Below, in pieces: positions 28,179-54,862 of a DNA stretch of 64,000 bases. The translations under genes were made by a program, and so were the position numbers. The stretch lies in NCBI RefSeq assembly GCF_900182905.1, contig NZ_FXUF01000011.1:1-64000 (forward strand), read 5' to 3'. This DNA is from Anoxynatronum buryatiense (GTDB lineage: Bacteria > Bacillota > Clostridia > Peptostreptococcales > Tindalliaceae). A model generated the notes under the pieces. It searched no databases, was not told the origin of the DNA, and was given only the letters and a program-made list of their open reading frames with translations. The first letter of the stretch is position 1; each line of letters begins with the position of its first letter.

Positions 28179-28409
28179 GGTGTCCTCCTATTATTTGTCG
28201 ATGTGATAAATGATTCCGGCTTCCTTTTTGACAATGTTGTAATATTGCAAAATCAGTCCTGCCAGAAAACGTCCTAAATTCAAATGGTTATCTCCTCATT
28301 GAAGATACCTCTGGCTACGAAGACCGCCTTGACACCTATTATACCCGAAAAGAGCGGTCATTGTTTTTTGAAAAGGCGCCATCCATGCTGATTTATGGAG
28401 CAGCGAATG

Positions 28410-28434
28410 AAAAGACACCCTGAGAAGGTGTCTT
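28410..28434 (-). terminator. Intrinsic terminator attached to RNA element copy A
   Basis: AAGACACC and GGTGTCTT form a perfect 8-base stem (28434-28427 with 28419-28412), loop of 7, then a short T-tract on the minus strand. It ends the 81-residue gene. The stem sequence differs wholly from that of copy B while staying paired. Confidence 0.7.
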
Positions 28435-28477
28435 GAGGTTGAAGACAAAGGACTTTGGTCAGGGCGGCTGATTCCAA
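28432..28477 (-). repeat. 46-nt conserved RNA element, copy A
   Basis: This minus-strand sequence (begins TTGGAATCAGCCGCCCTGAC) matches copy B at 54793-54838 at 38 of 46 positions with no gap. It starts 7 bases after the stop of the 81-residue gene and runs into a terminator. The core CCCTGACCAAAG and the small hairpin CAAA-GTCC-TTTG are kept in both. Confidence 0.7.
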
Positions 28478-28484
28478 CAGGCAC

Positions 28485-28730
28485 TCACACCGGACTGACT
28501 TTTTCATTATCATCCTTATGCACGTACACATAATAGGTATAGGCTAAGTCCAGGCGCTGTCCGGCAGTGCCGGTTCTGGCTCTGCCCGAACCCATCACAT
28601 TGGCATTGTTCCGGTTAACCACGCGGGTTTTGTATTTTATCCGGCTTTTTTCCAATGCATCACACACACGCTGATATTGATCCAATGATGTTCCCACATA
28701 TACTTCACGCCGGTTCCAAAATCCGATCAT
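28485..28730 (-). CDS. Small protein of unknown function (81 residues)
   Basis: A soluble 81-residue protein starting MIGFWNRREVYVGTS with a predicted alpha/beta pattern; basic in the middle (RIKYKTRVVNRN) and ending YTYYVYVHKDDNEK. GGAGGGG precedes the ATG at 28730. I recall similar unnamed short proteins in Clostridia but cannot give a family. The fold pattern resembles ACT- or DUF2007-like small domains; this is a guess. It stands alone, with RNA element copy A as its 3' end. Confidence 0.7.
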   Translation of the reverse strand: MIGFWNRREVYVGTSLDQYQRVCDALEKSRIKYKTRVVNRNNANVMGSGRARTGTAGQRLDLAYTYYVYVHKDDNEKVSPV

Positions 28731-52844: not shown

Positions 52845-53810
52845 GTGCACATTATTGACGTTAAAAATCTGAGTAAACGATTTGGAGATTTTACTGCAGT
52901 GAAAGAGATCAGCTTTTCGGTTGAAAAAGGAGAGGTTTTTGGCTTTCTGGGTCCCAACGGTGCCGGAAAAACCACGACCATTAACATGCTCACAGGGCTT
53001 GCACAACCGACATCCGGTGAAATCATGATTGCCTCACAGGACGGCATTAAAGATATCAAAAAAGTACAGCAGATCATCGGAATCGTTCCGGATGAAAGCA
53101 ACCTGTACGATGAGATGAGTGGGTATGCTAATTTGGTTTTCTGCGCTTCTCTTTACGGCCTGGAGAAGGCAACACGTGAAAAGAGAGCCCTGGAACTTTT
53201 AAAACAGTTTTCCTTGGACAACACAGGCGACAGACCATTCAAAGCTTATTCCAAGGGCATGAAGCGAAAGCTGACCATTGCTGCTGGCATCATTCATGAA
53301 CCGGAAATCCTTTTTCTGGATGAGCCCACCACCGGGATTGATGTGGAAAGCGCCCGACAGATCAGGCATCTGATCAAAACATTGAACGCAAAAGGAACAA
53401 CCATTTTTTTAACCACCCACTACATTGAAGATGCAGAGAGGCTCTGTAACCGTATTGGATTTATTGTCAATGGCAAGGTAATAAAAGTCAGCAAAACCAA
53501 TGATTTGATGAGTGAAGCGCAACAGGAAAACATCGTTGAGTTTTTCATTGAAAAAAGCGAGAGTGAGCTGGAAGCGGCTCTTTTACATCAGTTTCCTCAG
53601 GTTTCCATTAAACAGTCCTCGCCGGACAGCATCAAAATCAGTTCAGTTGAAAGAGTTCAACTGATGCCTTTTATGCGTTTTTTTGAAGCACAAGGTGTTG
53701 TTGTCAGTGAGGCAAGGATTCTGCGCCCTTCCCTGGAAGAAGTTTTTGTCAATATCACCGGGATCGAAATCAATAAACTGAAAAAAGAAAAGGAGGGGAA
53801 AAAGAAATGA
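52845..53810 (+). CDS. ABC exporter ATP-binding protein (NatA/CcmA type)
   Basis: The protein has 321 residues: GPNGAGKTT, a loose signature (YSKGMKRKLTIAAG), Walker B ILFLDEPTTGIDV and switch LTTHYIEDA. A C-terminal domain of about 95 residues follows. GTG at 52845 is the start, 8 bases after AGGAGG. It overlaps the permease gene by four bases. NatA- and DrrA-type exporters expel drugs, Na+ or peptides. The upstream ArsR-type gene is the likely regulator. Confidence 0.92.
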   Translation: MHIIDVKNLSKRFGDFTAVKEISFSVEKGEVFGFLGPNGAGKTTTINMLTGLAQPTSGEIMIASQDGIKDIKKVQQIIGIVPDESNLYDEMSGYANLVFCASLYGLEKATREKRALELLKQFSLDNTGDRPFKAYSKGMKRKLTIAAGIIHEPEILFLDEPTTGIDVESARQIRHLIKTLNAKGTTIFLTTHYIEDAERLCNRIGFIVNGKVIKVSKTNDLMSEAQQENIVEFFIEKSESELEAALLHQFPQVSIKQSSPDSIKISSVERVQLMPFMRFFEAQGVVVSEARILRPSLEEVFVNITGIEINKLKKEKEGKKK

Positions 53811-54541
53811 GACAACGAATGGCTTTCTGGAGTATTTTGGTGAAAGACATGCAGAACTACTATCTTAAGCCGCCGAATATCAGCTGGGGCATCATTTTTC
53901 CCATCTCTTGGACTCTTATGTTCTTTATGCGATCATCAACACCGGTGGATATTCGAGATATTCTCCCGGGGGTCATGGCCTTATCAGTCTTATTTGGCAC
54001 CACCTCCATGCTTGCCGTTACCATTACTTTTGAGCGAAAAAGCCGCTCTTTTGAGCGACTCCTGCTGGCACCCATCAGTCTAAATTTGTTAATGTTGGCC
54101 AAAACCACAGGGGCCATTGTGTTTGGTATTGTCAATGCCTTTGTTCCAGTGCTGTTTGCTTCTTTTCTGGTGGATCTTTCTGGCATTCACTGGGTTACAA
54201 TGATCGTTGGTGTTTTCCTGATTGCGGTTACATCAACTTTCCTGGGACTTTTTATTGCGGTATCTGTCCGCGAAGTTTTTGAAGCTCAGACCTTTTCAAA
54301 TTTTTTCCGTTTCCCCATGATGTTTCTTTGTGGATTGTTCATCCCCATCGAAAGCCTCCCTGTTTTTGTAAGACCCATTTCTTATGTATTGCCGTTGACC
54401 TATGGTGCTGATCTGCTCAAGTTTTCCATTAACCAAAACGGTCATATTCAGCTGTGGATCAGCCTCATTGTTCTGTTGGCTTACAGTGTCGGACTCTTTC
54501 TGATTAGCACCCATAATATTAAGAAAAAATGGATTTACTAG
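53807..54541 (+). CDS. ABC-2 type exporter permease
   Basis: A 244-residue protein with six membrane helices and the ABC-2 core (FERKSRSFERLLLAPISLNLL; FRFPMMFLCGLFIPIESLP; YVLPLTYGADLLKF). It is of the DrrB/NodJ type. Its ATG overlaps the ATPase stop, so the pair is translationally coupled. A single short permease gene suggests a homodimeric channel. Substrate unknown. Confidence 0.9.
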   Translation: MRQRMAFWSILVKDMQNYYLKPPNISWGIIFPISWTLMFFMRSSTPVDIRDILPGVMALSVLFGTTSMLAVTITFERKSRSFERLLLAPISLNLLMLAKTTGAIVFGIVNAFVPVLFASFLVDLSGIHWVTMIVGVFLIAVTSTFLGLFIAVSVREVFEAQTFSNFFRFPMMFLCGLFIPIESLPVFVRPISYVLPLTYGADLLKFSINQNGHIQLWISLIVLLAYSVGLFLISTHNIKKKWIY

Positions 54542-54723
54542 ACCTTTACCAGACACCGATGTGGGTATCGCTCTCTGTTCCCTTAACATTATTGGCTGAA
54601 CCACCTTCCAGTTATCAGGTGCCTTTATACGTAACATGATATTATCTCCCCTGGCGCCCCTACTGAATATTCTGGCAGCCTTGGAAATCTTGTCAGTGTT
54701 TTTCGAAAAGATGAGAAAACCGC

Positions 54724-54764
54724 CAGCGCCTGCTGTTTAGCGCAGCGAGTTCAGGCGCTGTTTT
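54724..54764 (+). terminator. Terminator after the ArsR-linked ABC operon
   Basis: CAGCGCCTG (54724-54732) and CAGGCGCTG (54752-54760) form a perfect 9-base stem followed by TTTT. The loop holds a smaller CTG/CAG pairing. It lies about 180 bases after the permease stop and before RNA element copy B. Confidence 0.65.
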
Positions 54765-54792
54765 CGAGACTTTTGACTAAAAACACACAAGA

Positions 54793-54838
54793 TTGGAGTC
54801 CGCTGCCCTGACCAAAGCCCTTTGACTCCAACTTCGAG
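54793..54838 (+). repeat. 46-nt conserved RNA element, copy B
   Basis: This plus-strand sequence (begins TTGGAGTCCGCTGCCCTGAC) matches copy A at 28477-28432 at 38 of 46 positions. TTGGAGT pairs with ACTCCAA to close a 7-base stem; inside are a conserved unpaired CCGCTGCCCTGAC and a small hairpin CAAA-GCCC-TTTG. An intrinsic terminator follows at once. It lies downstream of a first terminator, so it may be a separate small transcript. Confidence 0.7.
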
Positions 54839-54862
54839 CCTGCCCCAACGCAGGCTTTTTTT
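54838..54862 (+). terminator. Intrinsic terminator attached to RNA element copy B
   Basis: GCCTGC (54838-54843), a 6-base loop, GCAGGC (54850-54855) and seven T make a classic rho-independent terminator on the plus strand. Confidence 0.85.

Follow-up and report, generated by a model that had tools for sequence, protein, structure and literature searches.

Insertion sequences (ISs) of the IS1182 family are listed in ISfinder with direct repeats of variable length. Some members target palindromes, according to a review cited in the relevant passages of PMC5678879 and PMC4923244, and the same passages describe, for the family members IS1272 and TnSha1, hairpin targets, several of them terminators, which have no sequence consensus and are replaced or partly deleted upon insertion without any target duplication (PMC5678879, PMC4923244). 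Duplication of the whole stem-loop is drawn in the section of PMC5678879 used here only as a possible alternative pathway. Non-coding derivatives (MITEs) of ISMac2, another member of the IS1182 family, are tabulated for Methanosarcina acetivorans with sizes of 160 and 169 bp, 14 and 7 copies and, if the columns follow the order of the legend, direct repeats of 4 and 0 bp (table passage of PMC3852290). IS1182 is named among the families that are over-represented between convergent genes (excerpt of PMC9208149), and enrichment between convergent genes is likewise described for SPRITE, RUP and BOX, the small dispersed repeats of Streptococcus pneumoniae (excerpt of PMC3049150).

Here we describe a 46-nt element of Anoxynatronum buryatiense, which very probably forms the right end of an IS1182-family MITE, a non-autonomous transposable element that inserted at terminator hairpins and duplicated them. 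The MITE family is new within a known IS family, and the footprint left by its hairpin-guided insertion is unusually clear. The repeat family, its ends, the hairpin duplication, the IS1182-like tips and a filled and empty site of an autonomous relative can all be read from sequence comparison. The tips are the same as those of IS1182-family ISs with CAGACTG-AGACAAA ends, such as ISEfa7 of Enterococcus faecium, and in these ISs, too, the target is duplicated, usually as a whole hairpin (48 of 63 loci, from the best 80 of 364 relatives); the ISs are about 1.4-2.1 kb long and encode a transposase, whereas the MITE has ~208 nt or less and is non-coding. Hairpin targets are shared with IS1272 and TnSha1 as presented in the passages cited above, but the MITE duplicates the hairpin and IS1272 and TnSha1 do not. 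Like the MITE described here, the ISMac2 MITEs are non-coding and IS1182-derived, and a link to terminators is absent from the table passage of PMC3852290. SPRITE is itself terminator-like and a target duplication could not be established for it (excerpt of PMC3049150), whereas here a pre-existing terminator is the target. In the open literature, with ISfinder and most subscription papers outside the search, no report of hairpin-duplicating IS1182 MITEs was found.

Two truncated copies in the window

The window, i.e., the whole stretch of 64,000 nt that was analysed, comprises positions 1-64,000 (forward strand) of the A. buryatiense contig NZ_FXUF01000011.1. An initial annotation of this stretch had reported two matching segments, and recounting gave the same result: 28477-28432 on the minus strand and 54793-54838 on the plus strand align without gaps, with 38 of 46 positions identical, and both run into a hairpin and then a T-run, the two terminators differing in sequence. 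The features of the two loci are as follows.

28412..28434, minus strand: terminator hairpin of copy A, AAGACACC / GGTGTCTT plus T-run; no left-hand counterpart remains
28435..28477, minus strand: copy A, 43-nt right end of the MITE; the left part is gone, with nothing element-like upstream of 28477
28485..28730, minus strand: 81-aa open reading frame (ORF) that stops 7 nt before copy A, without Pfam match
53807..54541, plus strand: ABC-2 type transporter permease gene, upstream of copy B
54674..54835, plus strand: copy B, 5'-truncated MITE, about the last 162 nt of ~208, with the right end at 54793-54835
54837..54862, plus strand: terminator hairpin of copy B, AGCCTGC / GCAGGCT plus T-run

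Exact matches to the core GCCCTGACCAAAG are confined, in the window, to copies A and B, and at up to three mismatches the core has 21 window matches, which do not exceed the mean of 23 in shuffled sequence, hence the core alone proves nothing. As had been proposed, the match as a whole exceeds chance, since copy A as a query finds copy B at E=1.3e-6 and has 37 matches in the genome. Copies A and B are eroded, truncated remnants, both without the left end. By analogy with the intact copies described below, the hairpin of copy A is read as the surviving right-hand copy of a putative duplicated target; that of copy B is read in the same way, and its stem motifs do not recur in the 400 nt upstream. 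Both copies probably arose, before truncation, by the same kind of insertion as the intact ones.

The 46-nt stretch belongs to an element of about 208 nt

The 37 matches in the source genome were obtained with copy A and its flanks as the query (40 candidates scored), and most of them span query base 24 to about 67, which corresponds to the 46-mer without the terminator. The 35 further copies were retrieved, most with about 3 kb per side, and the upstream sequence was read for all 37. In many copies the same ~165 nt precede the 46-mer, so that the latter is the right end of an element of ~208 nt, which runs from CAGACTGTAGACAAAATAAGATGAAGACAAGG to CTTTGTCTTCAACCTC and whose left arm is an imperfect reverse complement of the right arm. 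With the left end as the query, 38 matches were obtained (40 scored), some of them degenerate left ends that have lost the right end. Among the 27 two-ended copies, 20 have 206-208 nt and seven have 84-112 nt and lack the centre; six of the 206-208-nt copies fold as one long hairpin of about -72 to -84 kcal/mol. The element is thus a short non-coding dispersed repeat with terminal inverted repeats, that is, a MITE. Where both neighbouring genes were called (34 copies), 11 copies lie between convergent, 21 between tandem and two between divergent genes, rough counts in which genes are plain ORFs.

Some copies consist of little more than the tips. A 50-nt derivative (C6:180441; L140 1041-1090) has a hairpin on each side, which suggests that insertion may need little more than the tips; a 34-nt derivative (C4:218711; L139 1011-1044) has hairpin-like stretches at its sides, and at a 45-nt derivative (C9:56713; L136 1013-1057) no flanking hairpin is visible. 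In a further, very short copy (L016, C12:50065-50103), CAGAC is fused directly to the right end and the same terminator hairpin stands on both sides, therefore the deletion occurred inside the element. A 334-nt derivative (L135 1741-2076, C2:99241-99574) has exact tips at both ends and flanking hairpins that are unlike each other, and one of its ends carries the sub-terminal sequence of an IS1182 remnant. Three copies (L027, L019 and L031, at C7:112361, C1:497402 and C14:73483) have private changes in common, with the right end GGCCAGTCCAAATCC...CTTCAGCC, which suggests a recent burst of a putative sub-family.

The terminator hairpin is duplicated around the MITE

In 20 of the 27 two-ended copies, the hairpin is present as a direct repeat of 19-30 bp on both sides of the element, with zero to five differences between the paired hairpins (none in 5 of the 20). 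When left flanks were compared with the right flanks of other copies as a control, the same repeat was found in only 4 of 702 pairs. Insertion hence duplicated whole terminator hairpins, and the stems differ between copies yet stay paired because each stem is a different duplicated target hairpin. Since the targets are near-palindromic, direct and inverted agreement of the flanks blur into each other; across the 27 copies, direct agreement was better in 18, inverted agreement in five, and both were equal in four. The 8 nt that precede the left hairpin contain at least five A in 13 of the 20 copies, and the 8 nt that follow the right hairpin contain at least five T in 10 of the 20, both counted without a control. 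The remaining seven of the 27 copies have no direct repeat above the threshold, and some of these have drifted or unlike hairpins on both sides. The outcome described for IS1272, with the hairpin removed and no duplication, does not fit these loci, as 20 of 27 MITE copies and 48 of 63 copies of the related ISs have the hairpin in duplicate.

Relation to IS1182-family elements

The tips of the MITE read CAGACTG(T/A)AGACAAA on the left and ...TTTGTCTTCAACCTC on the right. A scan of the source genome with AGRYTGWAGACAAA, allowing one mismatch, gave 87 matches compared with 18 for the reversed pattern, while the counts for five of the six relatives showed no clear excess, G004 among them being slightly above (23 versus 17). 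Among the tip matches listed, two adjoin matches to the transposase domain PF13751. At C6:201609, seven A are followed by the hairpin GCACCCCTGAATGAAGGGGTGC and then by the tip CAGACTGCAGACAAA, which leads into the end of a transposase frame, and at C16:54421 the tip ends a second transposase remnant and abuts the hairpin AGCATTCAAAAGAATGCT. An open remnant of 185 aa matches the NCBIfam model 'IS1182 family transposase' at 4.5e-43 and 148 bits, the full-length cut-off being 270. Each IS1182 remnant of the source genome shows one end only, and no intact autonomous copy with these tips, just the two truncated ones, was found in the 47 contigs, the gaps of which may conceal one. Five PF01609 matches were considered as the autonomous partner in the source genome and set aside, as none bears the MITE ends.

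The source genome also harbours an intact IS1182-family element on contig C22 (L082 1276-3029), which encodes a transposase of 482-486 aa and was rejected as partner because its tips, GGAGGCCACTGAAAAA, differ. It sits in a terminator-like hairpin and is bordered at each end by 7-10 bp of the loop, the figure varying with tip placement, and it looks like a product of the loop-duplication pathway drawn in the cited section of PMC5678879, whereas the MITE and its IS relatives fit the whole-stem-loop duplication pathway of the same section.

One scan of the genome collection with the remnant yielded 364 relatives, of which the best 80 were analysed. Both tips could be placed in 63 of these 80; of the remaining 17, a contig end cuts off 14 or 15. 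Among the 63 two-tip loci, 48 have a direct repeat of 18-34 bp immediately next to the tips, compared with 1 of 3906 mismatched pairs in the control. The 63 loci are distinct sites, not independent species, with Bacillus sp. OV166 contributing 14 (14 duplicated) and Enterococcus avium seven (five duplicated). At the 15 loci without duplication there are cases with a run of N, with a contig end or with doubtful tips, and others in which the duplication seems truly absent. In a fold test, the feet of a stem lay at most 3 nt from both ends of the duplication in 46 of the 48 cases, as opposed to 117 of 960 random segments of equal length. Self-complementarity of at least 0.6 was found for 42 of the 48 duplicated stretches, although this measure is intolerant of off-centre loops and the fold test is the better one. 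An A-rich left or T-rich right neighbour accompanies 44 of the 48 duplications (counted without a control). The MITE thus has its tips in common with IS1182-family elements, and its target duplications are of the kind that these elements make. Two of the IS1182 copies, L171 and L173 of Robertmurraya kyonggiensis, have long GC-rich inverted repeats near their ends (226 and 129 aligned positions with about 62% and 71% identity).

A filled and an empty site on enterococcal plasmids

IS1182 elements of E. faecium plasmids, several of them annotated as ISEfa7, share about 98% identity with the E. avium copy L191, which matched 268 plasmid records, all from Enterococcus. Five plasmid copies were read, and a duplicated hairpin-like stretch of 19-25 bp was present in three and absent in two. 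On the filled plasmid pELF_AA94, AAACGATGCCTATTTAGCATCGTTT occurs twice, as two 25-bp hairpins, while the empty site on pELF_AA55 has one hairpin and no element. The flanks of the two plasmids are identical at 600 of 600 nt (300 on the left including one hairpin, and 300 on the right without the second). One hairpin is likewise found on a second sister plasmid, pELF_AA96, whose flank differs by at least one base, and on two further plasmids, where the surroundings have diverged. For another plasmid IS copy, L231, the left flank matched no second record. The pair pELF_AA94/pELF_AA55 shows that a whole terminator-like hairpin was duplicated upon insertion of the autonomous relative.

RNA element or mobile element

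The initial annotation had favoured a structured RNA or 3'-UTR motif, and a conserved RNA element that belongs with terminators, as a regulator or stability element, would indeed account for the position at gene 3' ends beside terminators. It would also agree with the ability of the full element to fold as a long hairpin, in which, among 12 representatives, 95% of the cells of 55 pairs are paired, with 12 pairs changed on both sides, 15 on one side and 28 invariant. This covariation is not counted in favour of an RNA function because the inverted repeats alone explain the pairing, and an RNA element leaves it unexplained that the hairpin stands on both sides and that minimal copies are little but tips. 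The pair counts previously given for a small outer stem were correct (7 of 7 in copy B, 5 of 7 in copy A), but the stem is not conserved, being complete in only 1 of 37 copies and having 5 of 7 pairs in 20 of 37; the inner CAAA/TTTG stem is complete in 28 of the 37 copies, which are closely related. Rfam gave no match at the gathering score in the window or in L025, L061 and L082, in line with the earlier failure to assign a family, and a permissive search of 28350-28560 returned two chance-level matches only. Further copies, for which a search had been recommended, do exist in the source genome and in relatives; kinship with a known mobile repeat, which had been named as speaking against the RNA reading, is in substance what emerged, the ends and the target duplication being those of IS1182-family elements. 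A conserved 3'-UTR RNA is thus highly improbable, and the 46 nt are better explained as a transposon end, with the varying terminator as the insertion target. An incidental RNA effect may nevertheless result, since the element comes to lie in 3' regions and may, once transcribed, adopt a long hairpin fold.

Inverted-repeat tips with target duplication indicate a DDE transposase, and group II introns, REP/RAYT and integron attC sites were set aside on these two features. That another transposase family of the source genome moved the element, the IS1182 link being coincidental, has hardly any probability left: the genome does contain transposases of the IS1634 and IS1380 families and another IS1182 element whose tips are unlike, and the ends of these were only partly worked out, yet the 15-nt tips and the hairpin duplication are common to 48 IS1182-family copies elsewhere (best 80 of 364 relatives), and the IS1182 remnants of the source genome itself bear the same tip. 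We give equally little credence to a spread of terminator-linked repeats by recombination or gene conversion without transposition, to which the sequence differences between the terminators and the truncation of several copies could point; against it stand the fixed tips, the duplication of the target right up to these tips, and the exact empty site of an IS relative.

Proposed mechanism and implications

We infer that an IS1182 transposase moved these MITEs, and that it is the shape of a hairpin or cruciform, rather than its sequence, that is recognized. An IS1182-type DDE transposase, supplied in trans, would bind the tips of the element and join it to the two feet of the terminator hairpin, and gap repair would then copy the whole hairpin to both sides, so that the product would have the order A-rich stretch, hairpin, element, hairpin and T-run. 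Mutation and deletion would subsequently erode the copies, those in the window keeping the right part and the right-hand hairpin. On a broader level, it is reasonably likely that a widespread branch of IS1182 transposases, found here mainly in Bacillota, picks its targets by shape, namely an extruded hairpin of any sequence that is joined at its two feet, in which case the hairpin rather than the enzyme would determine how long the duplication is (18-34 bp), and that its MITEs spread in this way through the terminators of a genome and make 3' untranslated regions longer.

A mobile element with a legible footprint hence replaces a candidate RNA family, and dispersed repeats beside terminators can evidently pass for terminator-linked RNAs, which is a warning for similar cases. 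Shape-guided targeting by IS1182-type transposases is directly testable, as in 46 of 48 IS copies the hairpin marks the limits of the duplication, and the loci supply data for the whole-stem-loop duplication branch, a possibility in the drawing of PMC5678879 referred to above.

Distribution in related genomes

The MITE is present, whole or in part, in six of the seven genomes of the family that were drawn, with no match in the seventh (G003). G004, which belongs to another genus, G005 and G006 carry a diverged version of about 223 nt. Three of the four copies in G004 have identical hairpins on both sides (20, 28 and 23 bp) and the fourth lacks the left part, while in G006 one copy (L104) has a drifted duplicate and the second has no clear one. 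The copies of G005, G001 and G002 likewise show no clear hairpin duplicate. Across 198 genomes of the order, matches were found in 10, namely the source genome, five of its family and four outside. Three of these four, all from one other genus, match the central loop only and one matches over 26 nt, and on these sequences no wider spread beyond the family is claimed. Other long-hairpin repeats (L056, L057, L058, L062, L064, L065 and L068) occur in a different family of the order, in three genomes of a single genus, and have the central loop motif GTTTGAGCGCAGCGAGTTCA as their only feature in common with the MITE.
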